Of a stretch of DNA of 35,634 bases, positions 1 to 35,634 are shown one piece after another. The stretch's first letter is position 1. Each line of letters begins with the position of its first letter. The DNA is from a virus, in IMG/VR virus record IMGVR_UViG_3300037042_003141, positions 1 through 35,634 of that record. One strand, 5' to 3'. The position numbers and the translations under genes were made by a program. The notes beneath the pieces were generated by a model that saw nothing but the letters and a program-made list of their open reading frames with translations, made no database searches and was not told the origin of the DNA.

Positions 1-830
1 TAACTTCCGGCCCGAAGTCGGACAGGGTGCCGGTGTCCACACCATAACGGCGGCCATTCCAATCGGTGATGGGCGTGACCGCAAGCCGGTGGATGTGGCC
101 GGTGAAGATGTTCCGCCCGCCCTTCAGAGCGTTGTTCCATGTGGCATGCACGCCATTGTGCCATCTGTGCTTCACCATCGTGTGACCGTTGATCTCCAGC
201 GACCAGCAGTGATCCCAAGATGGGAAATGGTCAGGGAGATCCGTTCCGAACACTTTGACGTACTGGGGTGCCATCTGGGCCAAGCGTGCGCTGAACCGAG
301 TATCATGGTTGCCCATGCACCACACCAGCGGAACTCCATCGGGTGCAATCTTTTCAATCTGACCCAGCTTGCCCTTGCACTCTTCCAGCTCGTCAGCAAC
401 GTCAGGGAGTTGCGCCCATTCCGATGGTGCATGGCGGGAGATGGCGGCTCCATCAAATGCGTCACCATTGCAGACGATCAGCTTTATGGACTTCTTGTTG
501 GCCTTAATGAACCGGATCATCGCGTTAAAGGCCTCGCTGTCGTCACCGGGCCAGAAGTGGGCATCAGAGAAAATCACAGCCATCCCGTCTTTAACTTCCA
601 TCAGGCGGCGGTGGCCGATACGGTCCAAGTCAATCTTGGCGCGGCCAGAGCGGTCACCCTTGCTGTCATGCACCGGCAGGACAATGCCCAGAGCCGCCTC
701 TGCACGAAGACGAGCGCGATATGTGTTGCGCACGTTCATGCCGGTGGCCTTTGAAACAAGATCAGCAGAACCCAGCCTGCGCCAAATCTCTGCAAATTCG
801 GCGTCAGGTATTCTGAGAGTAGCAGCCATT
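1..830 (-). CDS. Metallophosphoesterase, C-terminus cut by window edge
   Basis: Translating down from the ATG at 830 gives an uninterrupted reading frame of 276 residues that runs off the left edge. It carries the ordered motifs of calcineurin-like metallophosphoesterases: SDAHFWPGD (about 88-96), VCNGDAFDG (119-127), MGNHDTRF (172-179), KHRWHNG (220-226) and TGHIH (243-247), which supply the Asp, His and Asn ligands of a two-metal centre. The first 80 residues look like a small helix-turn-helix-type domain, as in other phage members. The gene follows the portal with a 10-base gap and is probably co-transcribed with it. Substrate is unknown; nucleic acid or nucleotide phosphodiesters are usual guesses for phage enzymes. 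The family call is firm and the role is inference. Confidence 0.9.
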
Positions 831-840
831 TGTATTCCTC

Positions 841-3171
841 TTAACCAACAAGACCGGGCTTTGGCTTGGTTGCGGCAACCGTCATCTGAGCCGCAGCCTT
901 AATGCGTTCTTGCTGCAACTTGACCTCCGCCATCTTTTCACGGCTCTGGCGTTCTTCTGCGCGGTTCTGGCCGTCGATCAGAATGTCCTGATGCGTGATC
1001 TTCACCTCTTCAGCCTTGGCCTGTGCGGAGATCAGCTTGGCCTTGGCTTCCATTGCGTCAACGCTGTTGGGCGGCTCTCCACCGGCTTGACCGGCTTCCT
1101 GCATCTTGATCTGCGCCTCAATCTGCTTCACCTGAGCGTCAGCCTGCTTGTAGGCAGCATCAGCCTGTGCGCGGATCATATCGGCCTGTGCGCTCAAGCC
1201 CTGAGCATCTGCAGACTTGTTGGCAATCTGGGCCTGCGCCATCTTTTCCATCATCTCAGGCGGCATCTGGCCGTCAGGCGTTCTGATGAACTCATCCACG
1301 TTGGTGAAGCCGATGGTGCGCAATGCCTGCTTGTTAACGGCATCAAGGTCATATCCCTGCGGATAGGCCATAGCCAACTGGATCAGGGCTTGGGTCTTCA
1401 TCATGCGCTGGGTCTGGCTGGCCGTGTTTGGATCAGCCTGCGGCGTCAGGTAGAAGTTATCCAACGCCTCCATGAACGTGGCTTCATCCCACGGATATGC
1501 CGGTGCCTTGTTGCGCTGCCAGAAGCTTTCAGGGTTATCTCGGAAGCACTCAATCAGAAGCTGGAACTCTTCGCTCTGGGCCGCGTGCAGACGCTTGTGG
1601 ACGCTGTTAAGAACCTTGGTGGCCTGATCGATGATGGCGAGCGTTGTGCCGACCGGCGCATCCTGCCGACCTTCACCAACCGCCATTTCCATCGTGCCGC
1701 CCACGCGCTGGCCGTACTCCGCCATGTTCTGCGCAAGCTGCATCAGGGCCGCAGACGGCTCCTTGTACGGCAGGGGCATGATGGCCTGATTGAGGGGCAT
1801 GCCAGCGGTCTTGACCGGCGCACCACCACCCGGCGGCACACGGAAGATGTTGCTGTTCTGGCGGCCACCGGCATCGGCGTACAGGAAGCCGGGGAAGTTG
1901 GCGTACATACCCGCGTCCAGCAGCTCACGCCAAGCAGCGGTCACCGCATTGGTCGTGTTGCCGAGGATGTGCAGCAGGCCGATATCATAGAAGCCCAAGC
2001 CGGGAACGAACGGGAACTTGACAAACACCTTCTTCGCGGTCGGCAGGCGCTCATCCTGATCATAGTTGCGGACAAGGCTCAGGATCTGGCGGCTGGATAG
2101 ATCGATGGTGACGCGGTACGGGATTTCAAGGCCGGTTTCCTTCCCCTTGTACTTATGCTCGAAGCCCTTGATGTCCAGTTCGCAGTAGCACTCATAGATC
2201 TCGCGGTCGCGGTCCTCGGCATTGGTCACGTTGGGGCTGATGCCCTGCACGGATGCCTTTTCTTCCTGCGCCGCATCGGGATCACGCTGCTTGGGATCAT
2301 GCAGGGTTAGATCACGGTACGCGCCGAGGATCTGCATGCGCTTCACCACGCTGGGGCGCATCATGATGCGGTGCGTGATGCGCTTGGCGTTCTCTAGATC
2401 AGAGGCCGCGTTGTTAACGATCAGGTCATCGGCATCAATGCTTTCGGACACCGGGCGATTGCGCAGCGGGCATTGGTAGACCTTCTTGAAGGCAGAACCG
2501 CCAAAGCCGAGCATGAACAGCATGCGGTCGGTGTCCGGGTAATACTCGGTCGCGGTCGTCGTCAAGTAATGGTTCATGTCCTTTTCAAGCGCATCGGAGA
2601 GCGCATCAAGGCGAGAGGATCCATTGTTGCTGTCGTCACGGATCTTGACCGGCCCATCTGTAGGCAGCAGTTCCGAACGGGTGTTGGCTTGGAAACGCAG
2701 CACGGCTTCGAGCAGCAGCGGATGCCGGACTTTGCTCATGCCTTCGACCGGCGCACCGTCAGCAGCACCCTGCAGGCCGGGGATCTCAATCTTCAGGCCG
2801 AGCAGGCGCAGGCCTTGCGCACGGTCTTCGATCCAATCGCGGCGGCTGTCGATGTCTGATTGAATGCCACGCAACAGCTCTTCGGAGATGCGGGACAGCT
2901 CACCATCCTCAATGTCTTCAGCCAGATTGTCGAACCAACCTTCCGGCCCCCTGTCTTCTTTCGCGCTGCCAATTGGTTTGCCATCAAGCGAAACCGAGAT
3001 CGAGCCATCGGCGTGATCGATGCGCAGGATATTACCGGAAATGTCGATCTCAGGAACGTCAACGCTGTCGTCAACTTCCTCAATGATCACATCCGCATCC
3101 TCAATAGACGGCAGCTCAGGCGCGTCAGGGATCAGGCGAAGGTTTGGGTTCAGACCGGGAGTGAATGCCAT
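841..3171 (-). CDS. Portal protein, P22 type
   Basis: A 776-residue protein directly downstream of the large terminase, the usual place and size for a P22-family portal (P22 gp1 is about 725 residues). It should form the dodecameric ring at the capsid vertex through which DNA is packaged and ejected. The N-terminal 90 residues are acidic. A conserved-looking core runs from about 100 to 600. The last 150 residues are rich in Ala, Gln and Lys and predicted helical, matching the long helical barrel of P22-type portals. Start is ATG with AAGG nine bases upstream. Family membership is inferred from composition, size and synteny rather than a catalytic motif. Confidence 0.88.
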   Translation of the reverse strand: MAFTPGLNPNLRLIPDAPELPSIEDADVIIEEVDDSVDVPEIDISGNILRIDHADGSISVSLDGKPIGSAKEDRGPEGWFDNLAEDIEDGELSRISEELLRGIQSDIDSRRDWIEDRAQGLRLLGLKIEIPGLQGAADGAPVEGMSKVRHPLLLEAVLRFQANTRSELLPTDGPVKIRDDSNNGSSRLDALSDALEKDMNHYLTTTATEYYPDTDRMLFMLGFGGSAFKKVYQCPLRNRPVSESIDADDLIVNNAASDLENAKRITHRIMMRPSVVKRMQILGAYRDLTLHDPKQRDPDAAQEEKASVQGISPNVTNAEDRDREIYECYCELDIKGFEHKYKGKETGLEIPYRVTIDLSSRQILSLVRNYDQDERLPTAKKVFVKFPFVPGLGFYDIGLLHILGNTTNAVTAAWRELLDAGMYANFPGFLYADAGGRQNSNIFRVPPGGGAPVKTAGMPLNQAIMPLPYKEPSAALMQLAQNMAEYGQRVGGTMEMAVGEGRQDAPVGTTLAIIDQATKVLNSVHKRLHAAQSEEFQLLIECFRDNPESFWQRNKAPAYPWDEATFMEALDNFYLTPQADPNTASQTQRMMKTQALIQLAMAYPQGYDLDAVNKQALRTIGFTNVDEFIRTPDGQMPPEMMEKMAQAQIANKSADAQGLSAQADMIRAQADAAYKQADAQVKQIEAQIKMQEAGQAGGEPPNSVDAMEAKAKLISAQAKAEEVKITHQDILIDGQNRAEERQSREKMAEVKLQQERIKAAAQMTVAATKPKPGLVG

Positions 3172-3172
3172 G

Positions 3173-3376
3173 TTAATCTGCCTTTTCGTGATCTTCCATA
3201 AACAGGCGGATGGCTGTCATGGCTGCATAATCTTCGGGGGCTTTGTATGTTTCGTCACTTTGAGCTTCTACCAGCGGGATCAGGTATACCTCTGTGATGC
3301 CGTTATCACCTGACACCTCGACCGTGAAGATGTCAGTGTGAGGATCAAATTCCAAGATGGCCTTGCACTTTAACAT
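3173..3376 (-). CDS. Small hypothetical protein between terminase and portal
   Basis: A 67-residue acidic protein starting MLKCKAILEFDPHTDIFTVE. It lies in a compact minus-strand run, 7 bases after the large terminase, and its stop ends one base before the portal start. The N-terminal part looks like alternating beta strands and the C-terminal part, ending in MEDHEKAD, looks helical. I do not recognise a family. Position suggests a morphogenesis accessory role, but nothing in the sequence proves that. Confidence 0.65.
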   Translation of the reverse strand: MLKCKAILEFDPHTDIFTVEVSGDNGITEVYLIPLVEAQSDETYKAPEDYAAMTAIRLFMEDHEKAD

Positions 3377-3383
3377 CCAAACC

Positions 3384-4976
3384 TCAAACTGGATAAAGGG
3401 GCTTTTCGCCCGCGTTGCCGTGGAACTGTACAGCGGCGGCAGTCTCTGCCGTGCGTTCAGCGCCGCGCGTGATCATACCCGCGTTCCTGAGATAACGCAA
3501 AGCCATCGTAACTGTGTCGACGATATCGTCATGTTTCCCCTTGGGGAACTGGCTGCACTGGGTCACCACCATATCGGCCCATGAGAAGGCCATAGGAGCA
3601 TGCACGATGCCCTCTGCGAGGATGTGCTGTACCGAGTATGCCCGCGCCACCTTATCGCCGCCCTTGGGGTCGATGAGCTGCACGCTGAAATCCTCGTAGG
3701 CATAGAGCCGCCTGATTTCCTGCGCCACGCTGATGCCAGATGCTTTGTTTTCCACGATCAAGTGATCAACCTTGAACTTCTTGGCCGTGCTGGCGATGCG
3801 CTCGACCAGCTCGTTTAGCTCCATGCGGGCCTGCCAGCCGTTCATTAACATGATCTGCGGAACGTCCTGATCGTTGTTAAAGACGCCCCACACGGTCATC
3901 GCGCTGAAGTCGTTCTCTTCCTTGGTGGTATATGCCGTATCCACTGTGGCAATGACGAACTCGACCTCTGGATATGTCTCGCGTTCCCAATCGATCCAGT
4001 ATTCGCGCTTCAGGATACCACCACCCTTTGGCTCTGGCCGCTGTTGGAGCTGACCGGCGGCACCGAACGGGCCGAGCTGACGCTCAAGCCGGTCCACGCT
4101 GATCTCGTCGTACCGCTCAGGCGTTAACAGCTCGCCTTCCTCAGTGCGGGGATCCGACCAGCCAATGGCGTTGGGATACAGGATCTTGGCGCGCTCTGGC
4201 TCGTACCGCATGGGCAGCATGAGATGCACCCAATCGCTGTTGTTGCTGCCGAGGATGTGGCCGGTCAGGTCGTCCTCATGCAGACGCTGCATAACCAGCA
4301 CCATCGCGCCGGTGCGGGCGTTGTTAAGACGGGTGGACAGCGAATTGTCGAACCATTCGACTGTGCCGTTGCGCACCGTCTCGCTCTCCATGTCCACGCT
4401 GTTGTGAGGGTCGTCGATCATGATGATGCCGCCGCCTTCACCGGTCAGCGCACCGCCCACAGATGTGGCAAGGCGATATCCACCTGAGCTATTGTCGAAC
4501 CGCTGCTTGGCGTTCTGGTCGCCGGTCAACTGGTATCTGTCGCCCCACATGGATTGGTACCACGGGCTTTCGATCAGGCGGCGAGCCTTAATGCTATCAC
4601 GGATGGATAGCGATAATGCGTAGGAGCTATGCAAAAACTGCACACCGGGGCCGCTGGTGTCGCTCACATGGGGCTGCGCCCAGACCCAAGGGTCGAAGGC
4701 AACCAGCATAGATGACTTGGATGTGCGCGGTGGTTGGTTAATGATCAAGCGTTTGATCTCGCCGTCAGCGACAGCCTGCAAATGCTCAGCGATGGCACCC
4801 AGATGCCAGCCATCCACGAACGGGTTGGGATCGATGTATCGCCACCCGCGCTTCATAAACTCATACAGGCTCTGTTCGCAATCGAACCGCTCCAGATCCC
4901 GTTTTACTTTATCTACGTTAAAGGGGAGAGACGATCCGGTAATCTCCCGAAGCATCTCTCCCTTGAGCAGTTTCAC
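3384..4976 (-). CDS. terL: Terminase large subunit
   Basis: A 530-residue two-domain packaging motor. The ATPase domain shows a Walker A-like stretch QPPRTSKSSM (81-90) and a Walker B GGGIIMIDDPH (181-191). The RNase H-like nuclease domain shows IATVDTAY (342-349, acidic D346), VEN (E409) and KHDDIVDTV (481-489), giving the expected acidic cluster. It acts with the small terminase at the portal to pump and cut concatemeric DNA. The GTG start overlaps the upstream stop by four bases (GTGA); an ATG seven codons in is an alternative. Length and motifs are normal for the family. Confidence 0.95.
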   Translation of the reverse strand: MKLLKGEMLREITGSSLPFNVDKVKRDLERFDCEQSLYEFMKRGWRYIDPNPFVDGWHLGAIAEHLQAVADGEIKRLIINQPPRTSKSSMLVAFDPWVWAQPHVSDTSGPGVQFLHSSYALSLSIRDSIKARRLIESPWYQSMWGDRYQLTGDQNAKQRFDNSSGGYRLATSVGGALTGEGGGIIMIDDPHNSVDMESETVRNGTVEWFDNSLSTRLNNARTGAMVLVMQRLHEDDLTGHILGSNNSDWVHLMLPMRYEPERAKILYPNAIGWSDPRTEEGELLTPERYDEISVDRLERQLGPFGAAGQLQQRPEPKGGGILKREYWIDWERETYPEVEFVIATVDTAYTTKEENDFSAMTVWGVFNNDQDVPQIMLMNGWQARMELNELVERIASTAKKFKVDHLIVENKASGISVAQEIRRLYAYEDFSVQLIDPKGGDKVARAYSVQHILAEGIVHAPMAFSWADMVVTQCSQFPKGKHDDIVDTVTMALRYLRNAGMITRGAERTAETAAAVQFHGNAGEKPLYPV

Positions 4977-5218: not shown

Positions 5219-5795
5219 CGTCGTCTTCTCCATCTATGTTAAGGTCTTCAGTGTCTCCCTCGCGGGCCTCAATAGCCGTCAGCGCGAACCGAAGGCTGTC
5301 TCTTGCCTCGTCTGTTAACGAGGCAATGTCGATCTCTTGCGTTGGCACCAGCGGTGCGCCGTCCTTGCCGGTGATCTCCATCTTAATCACCTGATCGTTG
5401 TACTTCTTGGGCCTTAACTTGCCCATAACCCATTTGCGCGCCTCAATAGCCATTTTGCGATCGTCAGGCGTGGCGTTAACGAAGTCAGGATGGTCACCGT
5501 CAGCGATGGCAATTATCTCTTCCGCATAGGTGTCCTGCTGCATCTCGCGCGCGCGAGTGTAACTCTCTTGAAAAACATCATTCATTGCCAACTGCTTATA
5601 GATCACCGCCGCTGACGGAAAGTCATCGCCTATCTCCATCTTGCCTGATGTGGCTATGTATTGAATGGATCTTCCTGCGATGATCTCGCTCAGGATGAAC
5701 TCGACAATGTCAGGCGTGAAGTTAATGGGTGGTCGTCCTCCCTTTACGGGAAGCTTGATGACGTTGTCAGCCTGTATGTTTTGCTTCTTTGCCAT
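5211..5795 (-). CDS. terS: Terminase small subunit, Sf6 gp1-like
   Basis: A 194-residue protein just upstream of the large terminase. The N-terminal region has GRPPINFTPDIVEFILSEI (about 20-38), resembling the HTH start of the Sf6-type small terminase. The middle has RKWVMGKLRPKKYNDQV followed by a GKDGAP segment, a hallmark of that family. The acidic tail ends in DGEDDDE. It should recognise the packaging site and present DNA to the large terminase. Its ATG overlaps the stop of the HNH gene (TAATG), indicating translational coupling. It is longer than Sf6 gp1 (about 140 residues), mainly through the C-terminal acidic extension. Confidence 0.88.
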   Translation of the reverse strand: MAKKQNIQADNVIKLPVKGGRPPINFTPDIVEFILSEIIAGRSIQYIATSGKMEIGDDFPSAAVIYKQLAMNDVFQESYTRAREMQQDTYAEEIIAIADGDHPDFVNATPDDRKMAIEARKWVMGKLRPKKYNDQVIKMEITGKDGAPLVPTQEIDIASLTDEARDSLRFALTAIEAREGDTEDLNIDGEDDDE

Positions 5796-6292
5796 TACGT
5801 TAACCGAGCGTATTCGCCGTGATAGCGGACTGCCGCCCTGCAGTATGCGATATGCGCGTCCCTCTCTGTATTGTACCTTCCAAGATAGATGCGCTTGTGG
5901 TTAACGCAGATCTGGGCAGTGTATGTTCCAGACGCATTACGATGCGCTCCCTTGAGCTTACCAGACCTACCGGGCTTATTACGGGCATTCTCGGATTTCG
6001 TCACCGCGCGAAGGTTAACAATGCGATTGTCGGACTTGTCGAGGTTAATGTGATCGATCTGCTCTGGGGGAAACTCGCCATACACATAGAGCCATGCCAG
6101 CCGGTGCGTCAGGTACCTACGGCCATCTATGGAGATCTGGGTATAGCCAGCCGATTGAACCGCCTCTGGTCGGCTGCCTTTGGGCCTGCGCCCGCACTTG
6201 ACGAGGCTGGTAAAGATGCCGGTGTGCGGATCATAGTGAAGCAGTTCTTTGAGCCGCGCCTGCTTGAGGTCATTTACAGGTATGTTTTCCAT
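5795..6292 (-). CDS. HNH endonuclease with C-terminal AP2-type DNA-binding domain
   Basis: A 165-residue protein. The HNH core reads QIDHINLDKSDNRIVNLR (about 78-95) followed by ENARN, giving the paired His and the two Asn of the HNH_3 type. The C-terminal half (KGAHRNASGTYTAQI through YLGRYNTERDAHIAY) is an AP2-like DNA-binding domain. This pairing is typical of free-standing homing endonucleases in phages. It is the first gene before the small terminase and ends in a TAATG junction with it. It may be a mobile intruder or may assist packaging, as some terminase-adjacent HNH proteins do. Family is firm, role open. Confidence 0.9.
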   Translation of the reverse strand: MENIPVNDLKQARLKELLHYDPHTGIFTSLVKCGRRPKGSRPEAVQSAGYTQISIDGRRYLTHRLAWLYVYGEFPPEQIDHINLDKSDNRIVNLRAVTKSENARNKPGRSGKLKGAHRNASGTYTAQICVNHKRIYLGRYNTERDAHIAYCRAAVRYHGEYARLT

Positions 6293-6298
6293 TGCTCA

Positions 6299-6327
6299 AC
6301 TTTAACCTTTTTTGTCTATTTTTGCAA
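6299..6327 (-). promoter_or_regulatory. Candidate minus-strand promoter before HNH/terminase genes
   Basis: Read on the minus strand, TTGCAA (6327-6322) and TAAAGT (6304-6299) are separated by 17 bases, a fair sigma-70-like arrangement in a strongly AT-rich gap. The -35 hexamer equals that of the repeated early promoters in this genome. Predicted transcription would begin near the HNH start codon and so would mainly serve the terminase genes. This is pattern-based only. Confidence 0.3.
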
Positions 6328-13362: not shown

Positions 13363-13665
13363 ATGAACATTCCCAACCTCACGGACTCCCTCGCGGATGA
13401 AATTGGTCGCCTTGATGCCCTGAAAGCTCAGATCGAAGAAAAGCTTTCAGCTCTGAAGGCAGAGTTCAAGGCCACCGGCCTTGACGTTTTGGAAGGCCAG
13501 ATCTTCACCATCAGCCAATCCAAGGCCATTCGCCAAACGCTCGACACCGCCGCTGTTAAGCAGGAGCTGGGCCAGAGCTGGTTTGACGACCATAGCAAGC
13601 TTGCCGAGGTCACGACCGTGCGCGTGAAGGCCAAGGCTCCCAATGTCCTCTATGTGGTGGGGTGA
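13363..13665 (+). CDS. Small conserved phage protein (100 aa)
   Basis: A 100-residue protein whose N-terminal 45 residues form a helix (LADEIGRLDALKAQIEEKLS) and whose C-terminal half follows the pattern DVLEGQIFTISQSKAIRQTL then VKQELG and TTVRVKAKA. I recognise this layout from uncharacterised phage proteins often placed near recombination or replication genes. AGGAG lies six bases before the ATG. Function unknown. Confidence 0.72.
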   Translation: MNIPNLTDSLADEIGRLDALKAQIEEKLSALKAEFKATGLDVLEGQIFTISQSKAIRQTLDTAAVKQELGQSWFDDHSKLAEVTTVRVKAKAPNVLYVVG

Positions 13666-14097: not shown

Positions 14098-14124
14098 AGC
14101 CCCCTTTTGGGGGCTTTTCTTTAT
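14098..14124. terminator. Terminator between convergent operons
   Basis: AGCCCCC-TTTT-GGGGGCT forms a seven-pair perfect stem followed on the plus strand by TTTCTTTATT. It ends the rightward operon. On the minus strand the downstream sequence has few T residues, so it is weaker for transcription from the helicase gene. Confidence 0.85.
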
Positions 14125-15608
14125 TCAAAAATCCTGCGCACCGGGTCGAAGGTCAGGGTCACATCCCCCAGCTTACCGGCATCAGGCTGGTACCTCACCT
14201 TCTTCACGAATATCCCGGTTTCAGTGCTGAAAGGCACATCCCCAATGCGCGCCACGACCACACCGAGATCCGCTTTATTTGCCCAGTGGGAACTGTCGCT
14301 GATATCGTACAGGCTGATATCAGGCGCGTCCTTCTGGCCCGCACTTTTCACCGGGTGTGCCACGACGATCACCAGACAGTCGTAGCGGCGGGCAAAAGTC
14401 TTCAACTTGCGAATAGCCCTGCCGGTGTAATCGGTCACGCTCTCGTCCCGCCCGCGCACATGGTCGATCTCATTCCAAGGGTCAATAACACACACTTTCA
14501 TGCCGTGCCGGATCACAGCGGTGGTCATGCGCTCCAGCAACCAATCCAGATCATGCACGGCATCATCCTCGGCATCCGGGGCGATGAAAAAGAACCGGCG
14601 TTGGATGAACCGATCCGGCGTCAGGTGCATATCAGGCCCGTTGCCCCTTGAGCGGCGGTCGATGAAGACGTTCTCAATCTGCGCCGTAACGTAAGGCTTC
14701 ACACGCATTTCGAAGCTGGCAAGGCCGACATTCCAACCGTTCTTGTAGGCCAGATTGGTGGCAAGCTGGACGGTCCATGTTGACTTGCCGTGGCCGGGAA
14801 AGCCGGTGACGATCATGAACGCCGGTCGATAGGGCATCAGATACTCGTCTAATTTGGGGAACCCGGTCGAAACTGTCTCCATCTCCAGCTCAGGCGGGAG
14901 ATCGTCATATGTGTACACACCCGACACCGGGTAAGGCTTTGCCTGCGCCACAAGGGCCAGAACAGCGGCGGGGCCATGCGTAAGCAGAACCTCATTGGCG
15001 TCTTTGCAGTCAGGCGGATAGGTGACAAAAGAACAGCGCACCTTGTCCAACCGGCGGATCAGTTCCTTCGCCAGCCGCTGACCCGGTTCATCCGCATCAA
15101 CGGCAATGATGATGCTTTTGATTTTCGCCAAGGCATCCCACTCGTTCAGGATGAAGGCATATTTGTCGTCGCTATCGATATCGATGTCTGCGGTGCCTTC
15201 CGGCACGTTAATGAGCTTGCCGTCCTTGTCACGGGCCGGTGGCGCACCATCAGGCACCGAAACCACAAAAGGATACCCGGCGGCCATGAACGACAGGGCA
15301 TCCGGCTCACCCTCAACGATCACCAAAGAATTGGTGCCATCGATCAGGCCGGGGTCATCAAGAATGTCGCCATTAAAGAATGCTTTCGGGCAATTGGGTT
15401 TTTGCCAAAAACGCTTTCCCTTGGCGCGGTACTTTGCGCCTATCTCCCGACCATGCCGAATAAACGGAAAAACAAGAATGTCGCCATTTCCGTCAGCGAG
15501 AACTTGCCCATCCGCCACGCGCTGCGCTGAGTAAATCCCGATATCCATCGCGGCGGTCAGTATGCCGCGTTTGTCCAGCCATTCCATGTGAAGCGCGCTG
15601 ATTGTCAT
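14121..15608 (-). CDS. TOPRIM primase-helicase (T7 gp4 type) without its zinc domain
   Basis: From the ATG at 15608 this is a 495-residue protein. The TOPRIM primase part has SLVIVEGEPDALS (94-106) and IIIAVDADEPG (167-177). The hexameric DnaB/Twinkle-type helicase has Walker A GFPGHGKST (269-277) and a Walker B-like VCVIDPWNE. It should unwind the replication fork and lay primers. The zinc-binding domain that normally starts this protein is encoded immediately upstream in another frame (15493-15813). Deleting one T from the TTTT run at 15612-15615 would join the two into about 563 residues, close to T7 gp4A (566). The start used here lies near where T7's short form gp4B begins. The ribosome site is weak (AAGG 11 bases upstream). 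Confidence 0.9.
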   Translation of the reverse strand: MTISALHMEWLDKRGILTAAMDIGIYSAQRVADGQVLADGNGDILVFPFIRHGREIGAKYRAKGKRFWQKPNCPKAFFNGDILDDPGLIDGTNSLVIVEGEPDALSFMAAGYPFVVSVPDGAPPARDKDGKLINVPEGTADIDIDSDDKYAFILNEWDALAKIKSIIIAVDADEPGQRLAKELIRRLDKVRCSFVTYPPDCKDANEVLLTHGPAAVLALVAQAKPYPVSGVYTYDDLPPELEMETVSTGFPKLDEYLMPYRPAFMIVTGFPGHGKSTWTVQLATNLAYKNGWNVGLASFEMRVKPYVTAQIENVFIDRRSRGNGPDMHLTPDRFIQRRFFFIAPDAEDDAVHDLDWLLERMTTAVIRHGMKVCVIDPWNEIDHVRGRDESVTDYTGRAIRKLKTFARRYDCLVIVVAHPVKSAGQKDAPDISLYDISDSSHWANKADLGVVVARIGDVPFSTETGIFVKKVRYQPDAGKLGDVTLTFDPVRRIFE

Positions 15609-15813
15609 CGTAAAATCTACCTTGTGTCCAATTACAGTTAAAGCACCTAGCACCAACGCCGGTTTCGTCTATTCTTACCGACAAGCACGGATCAAGTTTG
15701 TGTTTACGCAGATGTGAGCATTGGGGGCAGAGCGTTTTGAAGTTTCCGCCGTTCGTCCTCACACGCCTGCCGGTTATCCCCATTTCGATCAACAGTTCTT
15801 CAGAAGTTTTCAT
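15493..15813 (-). CDS. Primase zinc-binding domain in a separate, shifted frame
   Basis: The ATG at 15813 overlaps the upstream initiator stop (ATGA). Residues 1-66 form a primase zinc ribbon: FKTLCPQC (C29, C32) and ARCFNC (C57, C60), with the helical lead MKTSEELLIEMGITGRRV. After that the frame continues for 40 residues (about 67-106) with a composition unlike the family, antiparallel to nothing known and overlapping the primase-helicase frame. The natural continuation lies one base away in the next gene. This is either a truncated, independently made zinc protein, a programmed or slippage frameshift site, or a sequencing/assembly error in a T run. Confidence 0.75.
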   Translation of the reverse strand: MKTSEELLIEMGITGRRVRTNGGNFKTLCPQCSHLRKHKLDPCLSVRIDETGVGARCFNCNWTQGRFYDDNQRASHGMAGQTRHTDRRDGYRDLLSAARGGWASSR

Positions 15814-17542: not shown

Positions 17543-17587
17543 CAGAGTTCAAAGATATACCTGTAGATGAAGCGAAGCAATGGCAGC

Positions 17588-18085
17588 ATGAACATCAACC
17601 AATGGACCATTAACGATCTGGAGCAATCCATCAAAGCGTTGCTTTTGGATTATCCAGAACTCAATGATGATGAAGAACTGAAGCAGGACATGCTTCACGG
17701 AAGCACCAAGTTTATTGAAGTGATGGAAAAGCTTCTGTTAACGATGATGGAAAAACAGGTTCTCAGGGATGCGTTGGGGGAGTTTATCCTTGCTCTCCGC
17801 CTCCGAGAGAGCGCGCTGGAAAAACGCATTGCATTCTTGCGTTCTCTCATGCACCGCCTTATGACCGCGACCGATACAAAATCTCTTGATTTGCCAGCCG
17901 CAAAATTGACTGTCAAAAGCACACCGGCAAAAGTTGTGATCTCGGACGAAGATGCTGTTCCTGCAGAATTTTTCCGTGTCAAGAAGGAGCTGAACAAAGC
18001 CGCAATCAAAGCCGCATTAGAAGATGGCAAGGAAGTTCCCGGTGCCAATCTTTCGAACGGGGGAACGACAATACAAGTGAGATAA
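17588..18085 (+). CDS. Siphovirus Gp157-like protein
   Basis: A 165-residue protein from the ATG at 17588; an in-frame ATG at 17567 is possible. It has a long helical first half (LREALEKRI-like heptads around residues 60-100) and the closing pattern of the Gp157 family: PAKVVISDEDAVPAEFFRVK then KELNKAAIKAALEDGKEVPG and SNGGTTIQVR. Family members are common next to ERF and SSB genes, as here. The molecular role is not settled, though a link to DNA recombination is suggested by context. It is the first gene of the rightward recombination operon. Confidence 0.87.
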   Translation: MNINQWTINDLEQSIKALLLDYPELNDDEELKQDMLHGSTKFIEVMEKLLLTMMEKQVLRDALGEFILALRLRESALEKRIAFLRSLMHRLMTATDTKSLDLPAAKLTVKSTPAKVVISDEDAVPAEFFRVKKELNKAAIKAALEDGKEVPGANLSNGGTTIQVR

Positions 18086-18314: not shown

Positions 18315-18950
18315 ATGTCAGCCAAAATTGCTGCTGCCCTTCATTCGGTCATGTCCAAGGTTGGATATGTCCAGAAACTGGGCGAAAACAAGTTCCACAA
18401 TTACAAATATGCCGGTGAGGGTGACCTTCTGAAGGTTCTTCGCCCCGCCATGATTGAGGCTGGCCTGATGCTGATACCCAGCATTCAGAGCGTTACCGCA
18501 ACCGATGAGAACGGCAATACAAATGTTCTTATCAGCTATACGCTGGTCCACAAGGATGGCGATGTGTGGCCCGAAAAGATCATGGCCGCCGGGTGTGGTG
18601 GAGACAAGAACAAGGGCGGCGTTGGTGACAAGGGGCTTTACAAGGCTCTGACCGGCGCAAACAAGTACCTTCTGTTCAAGCTTTTCCAGATCGAAACTGG
18701 CGATGATCCCGAAAATAACGCCAAACAACAGGCCGATGTTGAACAGGCCCAGTTGACCTACATCGAAGTTGCAAAGGCCGCAATTGCTTTGCAGGAAACG
18801 TCCACTGATCTTGATGCATGGTGGACCGCTGAAAAAGACAATCGCAAAAAGGTTGGCATCATTGTTAACAGCGATTTCTACTTGACACTGGCTAACCACT
18901 TTAAGGACCGCAAGGTCGTTCTGCTTCAGAAGGAAAATACAAATGGCTGA
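18315..18950 (+). CDS. erf: ERF-family single-strand annealing protein
   Basis: A 211-residue protein. The ERF domain spans about 1-135: FHNYKYAGEGDLLKVLRPAM (27-46), MLIPSIQSVT, and GDKGLYKALTGANKYLLFKL followed by FQIETGDDPE. P22 Erf and relatives form rings that anneal complementary single strands and can circularise or recombine phage genomes. The C-terminal 70 residues are a separate helical region with WWTAEKDNRKKVG. AGGA lies six bases before the ATG. It overlaps the SSB-like gene by eight bases, so the two are made together. Confidence 0.9.
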   Translation: MSAKIAAALHSVMSKVGYVQKLGENKFHNYKYAGEGDLLKVLRPAMIEAGLMLIPSIQSVTATDENGNTNVLISYTLVHKDGDVWPEKIMAAGCGGDKNKGGVGDKGLYKALTGANKYLLFKLFQIETGDDPENNAKQQADVEQAQLTYIEVAKAAIALQETSTDLDAWWTAEKDNRKKVGIIVNSDFYLTLANHFKDRKVVLLQKENTNG

Positions 18951-28554: not shown

Positions 28555-28932
28555 TCACGAATATGTAATGTTAACTTGCATGCCGGTGCCGCACACCGCC
28601 ACAAGGCCATCGTGGAAAACAATGTTGGCTGGATAGATGCCATTAACAATTGGCAACTCACAGATAATGTTGTCTACCGTTGCCCCGCCGACTGTTGCGG
28701 TGTCGTACAAGTATCCCACCGTTGTGGCTGTGCCAGACAACGCAAAATTCACCACACGGCCTGCGCCGGTTTTGACAAGAGCGCCCTGTGTAGCTTTGAT
28801 GGTGTTTGTGCTGTCCGTACCGACAGATGCTTCATAGATGACCTTAAAAGCATCCAAAGCTTGCACCAGAGCATTAACTGCTTGAACCCCATTTTTTTGG
28901 GTTGTTAAAATATCATCAAGAGAAGCTGCCAT
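28555..28932 (-). CDS. Small hypothetical virion protein (125 aa)
   Basis: A 125-residue protein with a helical start (MAASLDDILTTQKNGVQAVN) and a beta-rich rest (GAGRVVNFALSGTATTVGYL, GYLYDTATVGGATV). Its composition and site between the gp10-like gene and other virion genes suggest a small structural part. The ATG shares a base with the upstream stop (TGATG). I cannot name a family. Confidence 0.7.
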   Translation of the reverse strand: MAASLDDILTTQKNGVQAVNALVQALDAFKVIYEASVGTDSTNTIKATQGALVKTGAGRVVNFALSGTATTVGYLYDTATVGGATVDNIICELPIVNGIYPANIVFHDGLVAVCGTGMQVNITYS

Positions 28933-31634
28933 CAGTATTTCCCATCAGGTTGGAACCGATAACGAATGTTTCCCAACCGCCAGAATGAACCCAGATCAGT
29001 GCTGCTCACACTGATTGAAACAAGGCGGCCACGCATTCGCACGCTCAAATACTCTGTTTGCTTTGTCATTGTGTAAGGACCAAATGCAACCGGAGGATCA
29101 CCCGGATAGTCTACCACATAAAATGTGATGTAAACCACGGCATTTTGATCACCAGACGTTGTCCCCCATTTCATATCCGGCCAAACTTGGTCAATGAAAA
29201 GCTGTTGATCACCTTCGGACAAGGCAAAGTAACCTGTCTGGAAGTTGGGCTTGATGGCAATGGTTGTGCCGTTAATAGCCTCTGCATCATTTGACGTTTC
29301 ATGCTGGAAGACAGCATAACTGGGCGATGCAGGCGTTATGCTCTTGGATGTGGCAGCGCCAATTGGCGGTCCAAGAACAGACTGATCAATCCATGCCGTG
29401 CGGGCCACGTTCACGCTGTTGGAAACGTCTGAAGTGCTGGGATCCTGATATCCGAAATCCCACTGGTTCAGGGAGATGTTGTACTTCACATAAGCGTTAA
29501 CTTCGCCGGTCCCAGCTACAGTGCCGCCAGCGGGTAAACCGTTGCTGTCAAGGATTGGAACCTGAGCAGCCGGGAAATACCAAATGATCTCATTGAACTG
29601 AGTGTTTGGGCAGCAGCGGATGCGATCCGTCCACAATGCACCGTTGGCATCATAAATGCCGGTTGTCGGGCTTTCGTAGATGTTTTGGAACACCTGATCC
29701 CACACAGGGCATGGCAACAGTTCCGCACCTTGACCGGCAAAGCGGAAGAACTGCTTTTGGCTCATCCAATAAACGCTTCCAGCAAGCTGGCCCATTGCCT
29801 TCCGGCCAATCAAGCCAGCATTTGAACCGACCTTGTTAAACCCATAAACACCGGGGAAGCCAATGAACTGCATCGCCCAGAGATCAAGGTCAGTCCAAAT
29901 AAGACCCTGCTGGGCAGCCTGAATGCCGCCTACGATACGGCTTCCGGTAGGGATGCGGTACTTGCCCGCCAGATTGTTGGCGGTTCCCTGCCATACCGTA
30001 AAATCTTCAACGTCACACCAGCGAACAAGCAACGGATCTTGGAATGTACTATCTGTAGACCCAAGAGCAACGATTTGACGCTGCGGCATCGCCACAAACA
30101 TGCTTTCATTAAACAATGGAGCGTTTGGCATGTAGACGGCATTTGCCGCCTCACCGCCAGAGGGGATCCAATAAAAGATTGATCCGCCTACGGGATTGGA
30201 AACAAGAATTTGCCCCCATGTATCCAGTGACCAATCTGTTGCTGTAATTTCACTACCGGTCGTCACGGATGAAGAAAAGGAAATAGAACCAGCGGTGACT
30301 TGGCTGCCGGTGGCGGAACTGAGGAATGAGACAGAGCCGCTGGATGATGCGGTCACCACCCACGGGACACCGGGTGCGCTATTGTACGCACTGGGCGTTA
30401 CGCCAGAAATAGTGATAGATGTGCCAATCGGAATAACTTGGGCTGGGGTAAAAGTTACGGTAGCAGTTGTACCATTTCCTGATGTGGTTACGGTTACGCT
30501 GCCGCCGGTGCTGTAAACACCAGAACCGTATGTACCGGCAGAGGATCCGTCACCGCCGTAATAAAAGTTGGCGTTGTCTGTTGACGCTGAAATTGCAATG
30601 AAAAGGTTCTGGCGGATGGCTCCGCCGTTTTCATAACCAGATGCCGCAGACGTAGCAATCCCAGAAACTCTGATAGTGAAATTGTTTTCGTCAACAAGAC
30701 CTACAACAGAATACACACCCAAGAGTGTGATGCCGCCAACCGTTGTTGAAATAGGAATTTCAAAATCATCACCAATCACAAGGTTGTGGTTGTAAAGAGT
30801 TACGCGCACGCTGCTTGAAGCATTGGTTGTTGTAAACTGCGGCGGCGTGCCACCGTTCGTAACAGCGGGTGTTACCGTCCCACCAAAAGAAGATGCAGTG
30901 CCGCTGGCTCCAGATGTGTATGTAAATACATATGGGTTGCCTGAGTTTACCGTGATCGTCACCGTGGCGTCTGGAAAAGTTGTGTTATCATCCACATCTT
31001 TGATGTAAATGCTTTGAGAATTGTAAAATCTGTGTGGCTCAACCGTTGTGACGGTTACCGTTGTTCCAGACCTTGAAATGGTTGAAATTGACAGTGTCGC
31101 GTTTACGTTAATTGTATAGCTGTTTGTTCCAATATTGGACACCTGATAGGGGCCATATAGAAGCAAGTTCCCAACATTGATTTGTGTTGGAAAATAAACC
31201 CAATCAAGAACCGATGGGCTGATAGAACTTGTGACCACAACGCTATCGGATCCAGCCGATGTTGTTATGCCATATGTAAGCGCCCCAGACGTTGTACCCG
31301 GTGTAAAATCGTTGGTTGTGAACCGAGGGGTGACGTTATATGGGCCAAGCTGTTGCGAAGCATCATATGCCTGCAGACCGCTTTCGCCCTCTGACCCAAT
31401 GCCAAGCCAATCAACATTGTCTAGATCTTGCCAGCCCTTCAAGGCTCGGATCACGCCAGAGGATACCGTTCCGGTGATGAACCGCTTCCATCCGCCAATC
31501 TTTTGGGCCAAACCAGCGTTTTGCCGATCAGGGAAAAACCGCATCAAATTTGACTGAGAAACAGCCGCCTCATTCAATGCTGGCGTCCGGTTGGTATCGA
31601 CGCCCGGAATGATTTTTAGTGAGCCATGAGGCAT
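28932..31634 (-). CDS. Large virion protein, probable P22 gp10-like tail/stabilisation protein
   Basis: A 900-residue protein. The first 110 residues and the last 450 look like one beta-propeller-type fold (ITGTVSSGVIRALKGWQDLD at the front; MPQRQIVALGSTDSTFQDPL, AAQQGLIWTDLDLWAMQFIG later). Between them, about 110-450, lies a Ser/Thr/Gly-rich beta insert. P22 gp10 (packaged-DNA stabilisation, tail hub) has about 470 residues; the excess here equals the insert. The call relies on place and fold impression. The ATG follows GGGGAT at five bases. It should sit below the portal and hold the fibres or needle. Confidence 0.6.
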   Translation of the reverse strand: MPHGSLKIIPGVDTNRTPALNEAAVSQSNLMRFFPDRQNAGLAQKIGGWKRFITGTVSSGVIRALKGWQDLDNVDWLGIGSEGESGLQAYDASQQLGPYNVTPRFTTNDFTPGTTSGALTYGITTSAGSDSVVVTSSISPSVLDWVYFPTQINVGNLLLYGPYQVSNIGTNSYTINVNATLSISTISRSGTTVTVTTVEPHRFYNSQSIYIKDVDDNTTFPDATVTITVNSGNPYVFTYTSGASGTASSFGGTVTPAVTNGGTPPQFTTTNASSSVRVTLYNHNLVIGDDFEIPISTTVGGITLLGVYSVVGLVDENNFTIRVSGIATSAASGYENGGAIRQNLFIAISASTDNANFYYGGDGSSAGTYGSGVYSTGGSVTVTTSGNGTTATVTFTPAQVIPIGTSITISGVTPSAYNSAPGVPWVVTASSSGSVSFLSSATGSQVTAGSISFSSSVTTGSEITATDWSLDTWGQILVSNPVGGSIFYWIPSGGEAANAVYMPNAPLFNESMFVAMPQRQIVALGSTDSTFQDPLLVRWCDVEDFTVWQGTANNLAGKYRIPTGSRIVGGIQAAQQGLIWTDLDLWAMQFIGFPGVYGFNKVGSNAGLIGRKAMGQLAGSVYWMSQKQFFRFAGQGAELLPCPVWDQVFQNIYESPTTGIYDANGALWTDRIRCCPNTQFNEIIWYFPAAQVPILDSNGLPAGGTVAGTGEVNAYVKYNISLNQWDFGYQDPSTSDVSNSVNVARTAWIDQSVLGPPIGAATSKSITPASPSYAVFQHETSNDAEAINGTTIAIKPNFQTGYFALSEGDQQLFIDQVWPDMKWGTTSGDQNAVVYITFYVVDYPGDPPVAFGPYTMTKQTEYLSVRMRGRLVSISVSSTDLGSFWRLGNIRYRFQPDGKY

Positions 31635-31637
31635 GTT

Positions 31638-32375
31638 TTATCCCCGTGTCGGCGTTGCAACAGGTGACGGAGACATAGATGTCCACGCGCTGGCGGCAAA
31701 CTTTTTGCGATATTCTTCCATTGTCGCACCCTTCAGCAGGGCTTGATACTGGCTTTCGTAAGTTACAGCCATCTGCGGATCGTCATTGAGACGACCGAAA
31801 TTGCGTTGGTATCCGCTGACATAGATCATAGATGCCATCAGGAGCAAATCAGGCAGATATTGGCTGATGAAAGTTGTTGTGTTGGTTGAAGAAAGTGTTG
31901 CCGGTCGAATGGTGCCGATCACTTCAATTGTGTATGCGCTGTTAGGCCACGGACCCAAATAGAACGTGTGGTCATCCAACATAGCAAACGTCTCAGGAAC
32001 AGAGGTTCCGGTCGAGCTGGGCCACACATATTGCATGTATTCTTTGGTCACCGGCAGCAATGGATTGCGGGTGCCGCTATCAGCCACGGTTGTTCCCGCC
32101 GGTGTGATCACGTTAACGTCTTGAACGGTCACAAATACGCCTTGCGTAAATGATGCCGTTGAGGATCCGGGTGTGGCGGTGATGTTAACGGGGGTTACGG
32201 TTGAAAGAAGATCTAGATCACGCTGGATGCGCAGTTCTGCATATTCCAAAGCTTCAGGGATCAGCGCGTTAAAATTGCTGTCAGTTGAAGATGTGACGCC
32301 GCCCACGGTCTGAGATGGGACCACCGCCAGAAGGCAAAGCTGCTGCACATAGTTGTTGTAAGTCAAACCAGCCAT
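31638..32375 (-). CDS. Head-tail adaptor-like protein (245 aa)
   Basis: A 245-residue protein beginning MAGLTYNNYVQQLCLLAVVP. The segment FNALIPEALEYAELRIQRDL (34-53) is typical of podoviral adaptor proteins, followed by a beta domain (TPVNITATPGSSTASFTQGV onward) and a helical C-terminus with YQALLKGATMEEYRKKF. It lies between the gp10-like and endolysin genes. It probably links the portal with the tail hub. Family not assigned with certainty. Confidence 0.65.
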   Translation of the reverse strand: MAGLTYNNYVQQLCLLAVVPSQTVGGVTSSTDSNFNALIPEALEYAELRIQRDLDLLSTVTPVNITATPGSSTASFTQGVFVTVQDVNVITPAGTTVADSGTRNPLLPVTKEYMQYVWPSSTGTSVPETFAMLDDHTFYLGPWPNSAYTIEVIGTIRPATLSSTNTTTFISQYLPDLLLMASMIYVSGYQRNFGRLNDDPQMAVTYESQYQALLKGATMEEYRKKFAASAWTSMSPSPVATPTRG

Positions 32376-32386
32376 AACCGAACCCT

Positions 32387-32899
32387 TTATGTAGCCATCT
32401 TAAAGGCTGCATCCTCGACCTCTTCGACCCGCCTCGACCAACCACGGCCAAAGGTGTTCCAAGTTGCCAAAGATTGAAGAAATTTAAGACGTTGTTCGCA
32501 AACATCTTGCACCAATTCTCGCGGATTTGCATCAGAAACCTTGGCAAGCGTCTGAGCGCCAATAGAACCGTCCTCCTTGACCCCCAGAACGCGCTGGAGA
32601 GCCTTTGCAGCTCTGCCGGGTCCAGAGTTCACGGCATAGTCAAAGATGGCGTAATCAACGCCTTCAGGCAGATCATCAGCCCTTACCTTGTCCCAGTAGT
32701 TCTTGCGGTATAGGGGTTTAACTTTTTCCTTGGTCAGGCCACGCATATCCGCCTCACTGGCGGTTTTGCCTGTATAAGCCTCCCAGACCCGTTGGGTTAC
32801 ACCGAGGTTTGTGCGGCCACCGGGATCTTTTGGGTGATTAACATACCCGCCTTCATGTTTAATCATCAGTTCAAAACACTGATCAAAATTCTCTTTCAT
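32387..32899 (-). CDS. Endolysin, GH108-type N-acetylmuramidase
   Basis: Started at the ATG at 32899 (ATGA overlap with the XhlA-like gene), 170 residues. The catalytic segment is LMIKHEGGYVNHPKDPGGRT (about 12-31) with Glu in the HEGGY motif, then NLGVTQRVWEAY and VKPLYRKNYWDKVRADDLP. The C-terminal half has FDYAVNSGPGRAAKALQRVL and DGSIGAQTLAKV, the peptidoglycan-binding-like helical bundle of this family. It lacks a signal peptide, so release depends on the holin. It ends the lysis cassette. Confidence 0.92.
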   Translation of the reverse strand: MKENFDQCFELMIKHEGGYVNHPKDPGGRTNLGVTQRVWEAYTGKTASEADMRGLTKEKVKPLYRKNYWDKVRADDLPEGVDYAIFDYAVNSGPGRAAKALQRVLGVKEDGSIGAQTLAKVSDANPRELVQDVCEQRLKFLQSLATWNTFGRGWSRRVEEVEDAAFKMAT

Positions 32900-33174
32900 T
32901 TGAAAAACACTTTGATGGCAAAGGCCGTTCCAATGCTGACCAAAGTGCTGATCAGGCCGACAAAACCGCCAATCCAAAATTTGGAAGCGGCGCGAGCACC
33001 CTTCTCTTCGCTCATGCTCCGCGTTATTTCTGCAAGTATTAACTTGATGTCGTTAAATTCATTCTTAACTTCAGTCTTTAACTCTTTGAAGTCTTGCTCC
33101 AACCGGTTCACTTTTTCTTCCAATCTCACGATAGCCGCCGTTGTTTTGTCAAAACCAGATGTGGGTGAGGTCAT
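32896..33174 (-). CDS. XhlA-like membrane-associated lysis protein
   Basis: I use the ATG at 33174 (ATGA overlap with the holin stop, AAGGG nine bases upstream), giving 92 residues. A coiled coil (VRLEEKVNRLEQDFKELKTE) is followed by a C-terminal transmembrane segment (FWIGGFVGLISTLVSIGTAF) and a short basic end. This matches XhlA-type proteins that work with a holin. It may set lysis timing or act as an antiholin; the sequence does not decide. Confidence 0.78.
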   Translation of the reverse strand: MTSPTSGFDKTTAAIVRLEEKVNRLEQDFKELKTEVKNEFNDIKLILAEITRSMSEEKGARAASKFWIGGFVGLISTLVSIGTAFAIKVFFK

Positions 33175-33569
33175 CTTGATGTTCCCTTCCATTTGTCAAA
33201 GCTGCGGGCGGCAGTAACACCCAGCATAGCTGTCACCAAGGCCATCATGGTTTCGGTATTTGGCTCTGGTAGGGGTGTTGTCACACCACAAATAAGAAGG
33301 AACCAAGAAAGGATAGGCTGAAGCAAGAAAGCATAGCCAAGAGAAACACCGCCCATCCAGCCAATGAAAGGACGCCAACCAGCGACAAAAATGCTGGAGT
33401 GGGCAGCCTCAACTTTATTAACTTCTGTCTGAGATTGGCTTTCAGCAACAGCGGCCTTAAGCAATTCAGCCTGCATATCCAAGGCGGCTCGCTCACGAGC
33501 AGCCGGGTCTGGAATACGGGCCACCAGCTTGTCAATCAAAGGCATAAAAGAAGAGATCAAAGCAAGCAT
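33171..33569 (-). CDS. Holin, three-TM family (GTA type)
   Basis: A 132-residue protein with WRPFIGWMGGVSLGYAFLLQ (65-84), the signature of the GTA_holin_3TM family, then PILSWFLLICGV and a third segment TMMALVTAMLGVTAARSF. An amphipathic helix precedes these (ERAALDMQAELLKAAVAESQ). It should form inner-membrane lesions that let the endolysin out. This holin family is concentrated in alphaproteobacteria and their phages, which helps place the host. Confidence 0.9.
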   Translation of the reverse strand: MLALISSFMPLIDKLVARIPDPAARERAALDMQAELLKAAVAESQSQTEVNKVEAAHSSIFVAGWRPFIGWMGGVSLGYAFLLQPILSWFLLICGVTTPLPEPNTETMMALVTAMLGVTAARSFDKWKGTSR

Positions 33570-33584
33570 GGTGGCCCCTATTTG

Positions 33585-33770
33585 TTAAGCTTCAGCGGCA
33601 GAAGCTTCAGACGGGTTTGAGGCTTTGTGGGCCTCCACCTGTTCTGCACCCTGCCTCTGAACGGTTGCAATGAGTTCATGCACGGCTTCATACGGAGCCT
33701 TGGCTAAGACAGCAAGGATCGTATTAACCTGTTGAACATTAAGCTGAAGAACGATAGGCAAATTATCCAT
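33585..33770 (-). CDS. Small hypothetical protein upstream of the holin (61 aa)
   Basis: Started at the ATG at 33770, which has AAGGGGG four bases upstream; an upstream start at 33791 would overlap the fibre gene. The 61-residue helical product reads MDNLPIVLQLNVQQVNTILA and has an Ala/Glu-rich end. I have seen similar short proteins in lysis regions and near fibres. Function unknown. Confidence 0.65.
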   Translation of the reverse strand: MDNLPIVLQLNVQQVNTILAVLAKAPYEAVHELIATVQRQGAEQVEAHKASNPSEASAAEA

Positions 33771-33780
33771 AGAAACCCCC

Positions 33781-35634
33781 TTATGAGACACGATAGACAG
33801 TGAATGTGTTGGCGGCAGTCTTTCTGAAACGGAAGGTGCCGGAAGTCAATGTCGCCACTGTCAGCGCACCAACCGTGGTATTGCCGTTTGCACCAATTGT
33901 CAAAAGGTTGGCAGAAGTGTTAATAAAGGTAAGCTCAAATGCACTATTAACAGTCATGCCGCTGGCAATCACTGTATCAAGTGTGGTGCCTGTGGGAAGA
34001 TTTACAGTGGCTGCGCCACCTGTATATTGAATGATGCGGGTGCGAACCTGAGCAGCGTCCAAGGTGGTGGCAGCAGCCAATGATGTTTGTGCGGGTTGGA
34101 AGTATGTAAGGATACCAGAACTGTCAACGCGAACGCGCTCTGTTTGTGATGCTGTATCAATAATAACCGCATCAGTCGTGCCAGCGCCGCTGGTTGAGTG
34201 AATTGTTATTGTAGACCCTGCACCTGTGCCGCCAAACATTTGCGGAACTGTTACAGAGGTGCCGATAGTTGGGGCGGCACTGAATGAAGGCGCACCAGCA
34301 TTGGCGGTCAGGATTGTGTTAGCACCGCCTTGAGCGGTTGCCAGAATGGCACCAGCACCAGCGCCATAGAGGACACCATCAGTGGTAAATGTGGACACAC
34401 CAGTACCGCCATTTGGCACTGTAAGATCAGTCGTAAGTGTCAGAGAACCAGTGATGCTTACAACTCCGGCATTATCAATACGCATACGCTCAGTTACATC
34501 GCTTGCACCATCTGCCGTGGTAGAAAATGTTAAACGACCCGGCATATCGTTTGTGCCGGGTGTTGCATCTACAAATGCTGCAATTTGAGCGGCTCTCAAA
34601 TAGTTGGTGCCATCAAATCCTTCAAATCGAAGTGAGCCAATTTGATCTCCTGAAGCAACGATAGCACCACCTCTGCTTTTCAAAAAAGTATTGATGGCAG
34701 GAGAAGCATCTACCCCAGCGTAATGTGCTGAAAAACCAGAAAGTGAATTATTTGATTGGAAGCGGGCTATGCCAGCAGTGCCTGAAATTGATGTCAAGCT
34801 GCCAGATATAACTTGACCGTCATTGGTGACAAGAAACGGAGAAGCATCTGGGTTTGCACTGTCTTCAACAAGGATTGCATTTCCCGCGCCCGTTTGCGTA
34901 ATACGAAGGGCATCTGAAGCTGAATTTGCATTGATGATGCCCGTGCCAGTGATAGTAGTAACGCCAGCATTTGAAATACGAAGACGCTCGGATGCGCCGA
35001 CATTAAAAGCGGTATGTGCCGCAGCGTCCGTTTCTGTGTTGCTGATTACAAACGCGCCATTTTTGTACTTGACTATATTGGCCGCTACGTTCCCAGACCC
35101 AGCAGCATTTGATGAAATAAAGCGGAGAATACAACCAGCACTTGCGCCAGTATCTGGATTTGAAATGTCCAGATAACGAAGGTCGTTTAGGCTGCTGCCT
35201 CCAACAGTAACATTGCCATTGCTGGCGATACGCATACGTTCAGTTGGAGAAGATGCGCCATCTGCTGTGGTGGAAAAGACAAGCCTTCCCGGCATATCGT
35301 TGGTGCCGGGAGTTCCATCCACAGTGGCGGCCATGCTTGCCAATTCAATATTGGCTGCACCATCGTAACCAAAGAAGTTTACCGAACCAATGTCATTGCC
35401 AGAGGCCACAATTGTGGGGGCGGCAAATGTTCCGTTTGAACGGACAAAAAGTTGTCGGCTGTTAATTGCCGCGCCAGACAGCCACATCCTGTTTTGTGTT
35501 GTGCCAAGAATTTGCAATGGGGCCACTGGAGCCGTAACGCCAATACCGACATTCCCAGTTGCAGTTACAACAAATGGAGTGCTGTCCGGGTTTGCGCTGT
35601 CTTCAACGAGGATAGCATCGCCTGCGCCTGTTTG
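33781..35634 (-). CDS. Large repetitive tail fibre, N-terminus cut by window edge
   Basis: At least 617 residues; the frame is open to the right edge, so the true start lies outside. It is Gly/Ala/Thr/Asn-rich beta-fibre sequence. Two tandem units of about 245 residues are visible: QTGAGDAILVEDSANPDSTP near the edge recurs as QTGAGNAILVEDSANPDASP, and GTNDMPGRLVFSTTADGASS recurs as GTNDMPGRLTFSTTADGASD, each followed by TERMRI. The C-terminal 130 residues (from about TTLDAAQVRTRIIQYTGGAA) form a different beta-rich domain. No S74 chaperone ends it. It probably binds the host receptor and may be modified by repeat exchange. Confidence 0.82.
   Translation of the reverse strand, partial: QTGAGDAILVEDSANPDSTPFVVTATGNVGIGVTAPVAPLQILGTTQNRMWLSGAAINSRQLFVRSNGTFAAPTIVASGNDIGSVNFFGYDGAANIELASMAATVDGTPGTNDMPGRLVFSTTADGASSPTERMRIASNGNVTVGGSSLNDLRYLDISNPDTGASAGCILRFISSNAAGSGNVAANIVKYKNGAFVISNTETDAAAHTAFNVGASERLRISNAGVTTITGTGIINANSASDALRITQTGAGNAILVEDSANPDASPFLVTNDGQVISGSLTSISGTAGIARFQSNNSLSGFSAHYAGVDASPAINTFLKSRGGAIVASGDQIGSLRFEGFDGTNYLRAAQIAAFVDATPGTNDMPGRLTFSTTADGASDVTERMRIDNAGVVSITGSLTLTTDLTVPNGGTGVSTFTTDGVLYGAGAGAILATAQGGANTILTANAGAPSFSAAPTIGTSVTVPQMFGGTGAGSTITIHSTSGAGTTDAVIIDTASQTERVRVDSSGILTYFQPAQTSLAAATTLDAAQVRTRIIQYTGGAATVNLPTGTTLDTVIASGMTVNSAFELTFINTSANLLTIGANGNTTVGALTVATLTSGTFRFRKTAANTFTVYRVS

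Follow-up and report, generated by a model that had tools for sequence, protein, structure and literature searches.

The question raised by this locus is why a stretch of phage DNA of 35,634 nucleotides (the window) contains almost no copy of the pentamer GANTC, and what kind of host would lead a phage to lose it. The window (IMGVR_UViG_3300037042_003141, virus record G000) is a 35.6-kb piece of a tailed-phage genome from an uncultivated record and was classed as a freshwater-type phage. Lysis and tail genes were present beside an SU10-type portal, a terminase, a primase-helicase, an ERF recombinase and a Gam-like protein (Table 1). The phage is probably lytic and the window is a fragment of its genome, which would measure perhaps 60 kb. 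A protein with HNH_3 and AP2 domains, encoded on the minus strand at 5795-6292 and adjoining the terminase-side genes, is probably a free-standing homing endonuclease. The tail fibre gene contains internal repeats with two near-identical TPGTNDMPGRL-FSTTADGAS--TERMRI blocks.

Table 1 Features of the window with their coordinates
Feature	Position	Strand	Remark
Whole window	1..35634	.	almost without GANTC; zero CCWGG and about 20 palindromic hexamers at zero
Portal (head-tail connector), SU10_portal family	841..3171	-	basis of the family tree
Large terminase	3384..4976	-	nearest named hosts after MW202675: Roseobacter, Paracoccus
Small gene, function unassigned, no PHROG match	13363..13665	+	carries the single GANTC near its start
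Toprim/DnaB-type primase-helicase	14121..15656	-	
Mu Gam-like DNA end-protection gene	17567..18085	+	
ERF-family single-strand annealing recombinase	18315..18950	+	
Virion structural (stabilisation) protein	28932..31634	-	
Tail fibre gene	33781..35634	-	runs past the window end

A programmatic count returned exactly one GANTC (GACTC, 13384-13388), the same site that a first-pass annotation had picked out by eye, and the roughly 139 sites expected in that reading agreed with the 138 obtained from base composition. Stricter nulls lowered the expectation: order-1, order-2 and order-3 Markov models gave 124, 103 and 46, and 200 shuffles preserving every protein and the codon usage gave 72.5 +/- 7 (minimum 52). 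The order-3 model was judged too lenient and its value of 46 too low because it is built from GANT and ANTC tetramers that are themselves depleted by avoidance. Even against an expectation of 72.5 the Poisson probability of a single site is 2e-30. The loss is about 75-fold and spans the whole window. None of the other 256 N2-N-N2 words was as depleted as GANTC (0.008), with CCNGG next at 0.55, the deficit of which comes from CCWGG alone, and the one-mismatch neighbours of GANTC stood at 0.62-1.20 of expectation. Tens of sites were thus not found and unrelated pentamers showed no such loss.

The codons of the window carry the same signature. GANTC arises wherever a TCN serine codon comes after an Asp or Glu codon, and serine after Asp or Glu was encoded 45 times by AGY and once by TCN, while elsewhere the two classes were used 212 and 441 times, respectively (Fisher p=6e-20). 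Proline before glycine was encoded by CCS in 45 cases and by CCW in none, compared with 240:230 elsewhere (p=5e-13). At portal sites where relatives have GANTC, the window kept the amino acids but used a different codon at 10 of 25, and at sites where relatives have CCWGG it did so at 18 of 31 (2 of the latter in gaps). As the recoding at GANTC and CCWGG positions is synonymous, selection acts against the DNA word, through synonymous codons, and not against the protein.

The gap had at first been taken to be specific to GANTC, which did not hold up, as CCWGG and about twenty palindromic hexamers were absent to the same degree. No CCWGG was found against 80-91 expected (84.8 by the codon null), while its twin CCSGG was at or above expectation (82 vs 70). 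Eighteen to twenty of the 41-46 testable palindromic hexamers were gone (18 of 46 with an automatic gene set and a stricter limit of at least 5 expected), and about 21 stood at zero among those with about four or more expected under the codon null. The hexamers at zero included GCCGGC (0/22.9), GGCGCC (0/20.3), CGGCCG (0/15.7), TGGCCA (0/14.2) and CAGCTG (0/13.4). The degenerate classes GRGCYC (0/30-39), CYCGRG (0/19-30), RGGNCCY (0/25-34) and GKGCMC were empty, and the asymmetric words GGTCTC and ACCTGC were likewise at zero. Type II enzymes with such targets include HinfI (GANTC), EcoRII and BstNI (CCWGG), BanII (GRGCYC), AvaI (CYCGRG), EcoO109I (RGGNCCY), BsaI (GGTCTC) and BspMI (ACCTGC), and this match of the empty degenerate classes to known Type II specificities supports a reading in terms of restriction.

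The pattern was all-or-none, with lost words at zero and the remaining words near 1, including GGATCC, GTTAAC, AAGCTT, TGATCA and the tetramer GATC, which were normal or raised. Words with internal gaps of 2-10 included no palindromic and three other words at or below 0.1, compared with 19 of 46 contiguous palindromes; these three were weak cases and the Type I-like gapped words were otherwise free of zeros. The lost words are therefore palindromic Type II targets rather than gapped Type I-like words. A site has been counted as eliminated when its compositional bias is below 0.1 with more than 15 expected (PMC6286503), and by this measure GANTC gave 0.03 (1 vs 39.8) and CCWGG 0.00 (0 vs 33.8). 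In contrast to the purged words, GTTAAC exceeded its expectation, at 21 against 5-6 by Markov models and at 20 where the codon null predicts 12, and so did GATC, at 208 against 132-194.

Close to 600 relatives turned up in the viral collection, and 80 of these were fetched for comparison. The nearest named record was MW202675 (Manatee Spring, 61 kb), with a portal 61% identical, and the next were Pelagibacter, Roseobacter and Caulobacter phages at 31-34% portal identity. GANTC was at 0 or 1 in L001 (61 kb, 1 vs 115 expected), L005, L006, L007, L027, L043, L065 and MW202675, with zero in L005, L006 and L007 and one in MW202675 and in the near-full relative G001 (61 kb), while the remaining relatives showed graded values of 0.15-1.1. 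Since the window comes from an uncultivated virus record, the pattern might be suspected to be an artefact of assembly or sampling in a single metagenomic contig; this is scarcely credible, however, given the agreement of these independent records, the absence of GANTC from the isolate phiM5 and the extension of the loss over the entire window.

Elimination of GANTC and of CCWGG switched repeatedly across the 80 relatives. Sister lineages differed, with 9-22 GANTC in L002-L004 compared with 0-1 in L001, L005 and L006. CCWGG was at zero across most of the phage family, while L035-L039 mirrored the window with zero CCSGG and CCWGG kept at 0.6-0.7, and the avoidance thus tells apart the central base pair (W or S) of CCNGG. 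On the portal tree, which was a quick tree with long branches flagged, the eliminated state changed at least 5 times for GANTC, at least 10 times for CCWGG and at least twice for CCSGG, and very near sisters differed. The window and its closest relative had lost 18 and 26 hexamers, respectively, with 11 in common, and every GANTC-eliminating phage examined over a long record also eliminated 12-26 hexamers. Lineages therefore carry differing and changing sets of lost words. Intermediate CCWGG levels of 0.27-0.48 were seen in L053, L045, L046 and L054 and in L126 and L082 (Caulobacter phage RW), levels that would fit an elimination still in progress or one that is decaying.

The only GANTC lies on the plus strand, where the small gene listed in Table 1 encodes Asp-Ser as GAC TCC. 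Retention of this lone site for a function was ruled out, since the surviving sites of the window, G001 and MW202675 are at non-homologous positions.

A mutational or compositional bias, through decay of methylated cytosine, codon usage or a generic avoidance of palindromes and with no selection by a nuclease, was also considered. Mild under-representation of palindromes is common in phages, and the palindromic hexamers of the window together stood at 0.5 of expectation, as such a bias would predict. The null that preserves codon usage nevertheless still predicts 72.5 GANTC and 84.8 CCWGG, the distribution is all-or-none, neighbouring words are near normal and adenine methylation at GANTC offers no decay route. 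CCWGG is lost but not CCSGG, and L035-L039 have lost CCSGG instead. Methyl-cytosine decay and codon usage are ruled out by the shuffle that preserves codons and by the difference between CCWGG and CCSGG, and a bias of any of these kinds is considered very improbable.

Evidence on the host was drawn from proviruses on large isolate contigs. Portal relatives with 50-54% identity were located on contigs of 200-882 kb from Rhizobium lusitanum P1-7, Rhizobium sp. BK316, a Rhizobiales isolate and Acidisoma; these were the nearest chromosomally anchored relatives and all were Alphaproteobacteria. On the indirect evidence of these proviral relatives an alphaproteobacterial host, already hinted at in the first-pass annotation, is likely for the phage of the window. 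The proviral relatives L114, L116, L117 and L119 (Rhizobium, Rhizobiales, Acidisoma) had GANTC at 0.40-0.54 and almost no lost hexamers. Host assignment from metagenome bins was dropped, as the carrier bins belonged to several phyla. A model of EcoRII-C gave no matches in the carrier genomes, nor in the controls.

These observations are best explained by avoidance of Type II restriction enzymes, those of the HinfI type among them, in hosts from the Alphaproteobacteria, an explanation that we hold with good confidence. Ancestors of the phage would have repeatedly met hosts with Type II restriction enzymes, genomes bearing a target word would have been cut upon entry, and mutations removing a word, mostly silent, would have been retained, so that GANTC, CCWGG and about twenty further Type II targets eventually disappeared. 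The GANTC loss together with the proviral relatives points to Alphaproteobacteria as the hosts, in which GANTC is already methylated by CcrM; the word is also the target of HinfI-type enzymes. It was proposed at the outset that GANTC is either cut by a HinfI-type system or marked by CcrM in the host. The selection behind that proposal is real, as the synonymous codons show, and cutting is favoured over marking because CCWGG and many other Type II words, untouched by CcrM, were purged too; cutting as the agent and the host class are both inferred.

The alternative is that the phage avoids marking by CcrM, or capture of GcrA at methylated GANTC, and that the other lost words are a separate effect of restriction. 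Among named phages GANTC was depleted (at or below 0.54) in 7 of 10 from Alphaproteobacteria and in none of 6 from other hosts, which have purged other words but not GANTC (p=0.011 in a small, hand-picked set that excludes phage DSL-LC04, which came from a sample of lake water and has a host named no more closely than 'Gammaproteobacteria'). Depletion that tracks host class is not predicted by a pure restriction account without an extra step, and growth in a CcrM host could leave GANTC in the phage DNA methylated and the phage immune to HinfI-type cutting, which counts against the restriction explanation. Marking is also in line with Rhizobium phage RHph_Y52 (L127), which has two genes for beta-class N6/N4 DNA methylases (matches L134 and L136) and is undepleted in GANTC (93 vs 85 expected), with CCWGG at 0 vs 45. 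No match to PF01555, PF05869 or PF02086 methylases was found in the window, an incomplete genome, and none to these or PF00145 in G001.

Alphaproteobacterial chromosomes bearing CcrM are likewise depleted in GANTC, though only about twofold (PMC3973325), compared with about 75-fold in the window, so the CcrM mark alone is insufficient. The twofold level in chromosomes and proviruses may reflect CcrM or something linked to CcrM. Proviruses in Alphaproteobacteria reached only the 0.40-0.54 given above, the Pelagibacter phages HTVC023P and HTVC027P kept GANTC at 1.08 and 0.98 despite a GANTC-methylating host, and Caulobacter phage RW was at 0.52 in the CcrM type host. The loss of GANTC in the window is also as deep as that of CCWGG and the hexamers, words that CcrM leaves alone. 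Elimination was thus neither found in all phages of CcrM hosts nor confined to GANTC, and the depth of the loss, the other lost words and the CcrM-host phages that keep GANTC rule out the mark as sole cause. Avoidance of the mark with separate restriction of the other words is regarded as unlikely.

The claimed cyanophages MinM2 (L104) and MJing1 (L125) and the records OL906435 and PP438419 have 68-71% GC and lack GANTC. A length of 65014 is shared by three records, that of MinM2 and two others, which name three different cyanobacterial hosts, and the true hosts of these claimed cyanophages may be heterotrophic bacteria in the cultures. They were set aside as examples of elimination outside Alphaproteobacteria on account of the GC content and the conflicting host labels, which make the hosts doubtful.

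An extra step that would join restriction to host class is speculative. Protection of host DNA by CcrM might make GANTC-cutting enzymes cheap to keep in Alphaproteobacteria; the methylation would let these bacteria hold GANTC nucleases without a partner methylase, or would make GANTC a class-wide mark of self and non-self. We offer this tentatively and rate it as possible but more doubtful than not. If true, GANTC would be the main restriction target for phages of Alphaproteobacteria, and these would split into those that purge the word (the family of the window, phiM5 and some pelagiphages) and those that have it methylated by enzymes of their own (RHph_Y52 and vB_OspM_OC). The contrast in GANTC between phages of Alphaproteobacteria and of other hosts suggests that methylation tied to the cell cycle may serve in defence as well. 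Under the restriction explanation each genome of the family would be a readable record of the restriction enzymes that its recent ancestors met, and lost words could serve, for uncultivated phages, as a guide to their hosts and to the specificities of the enzymes.

Elimination of Type II sites in non-modifying dsDNA phages is well documented (Rusinov et al. 2018, PMC6286503). In the same pipeline the classic case, T7, resembled the window with 14 of 52 hexamers and CCWGG eliminated, but T7 keeps GANTC (189 vs 138 expected) where the window loses it, and in the window's case the set of lost words varies among close relatives. About half of 33 pelagiphages have been reported as depleted in GANTC, with clustering by phylogeny, a contrast seen mainly in Autographivirinae, and evasion of a defence based on methylation marks has been raised (PMC9516812). 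Pelagiphage HTVC019P is GANTC-poor like the window (6 vs 82 expected), although the depleted pelagiphages belong to a different phage family, and the fact that many further Type II words vanished along with GANTC in the window points to restriction, unlike the mark-based suggestion made for pelagiphages. Sinorhizobium phage phiM5 is closer in pattern, with 0 GANTC vs 94 expected, 15 hexamers eliminated, a rhizobial host and a virion protein distantly related to that of the window; it differs in being a 44-kb genome with an annotated integrase gene and in having CCWGG reduced (11 vs 136) rather than at zero. Ochrobactrum phage vB_OspM_OC encodes a CcrM-like methylase (PMC7139368) and so handles GANTC by its own enzyme, whereas the window and G001, with no match to the methylase families searched, avoid the word. 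The strategy itself is known and GANTC depletion has already been reported in pelagiphages, while less familiar aspects seem to be how broad the loss is in this large uncultivated family, the switch between W and S in the middle of CCNGG and the pattern by host class. The loss of sites is unusually clear and broad in the window and varies between related phages.
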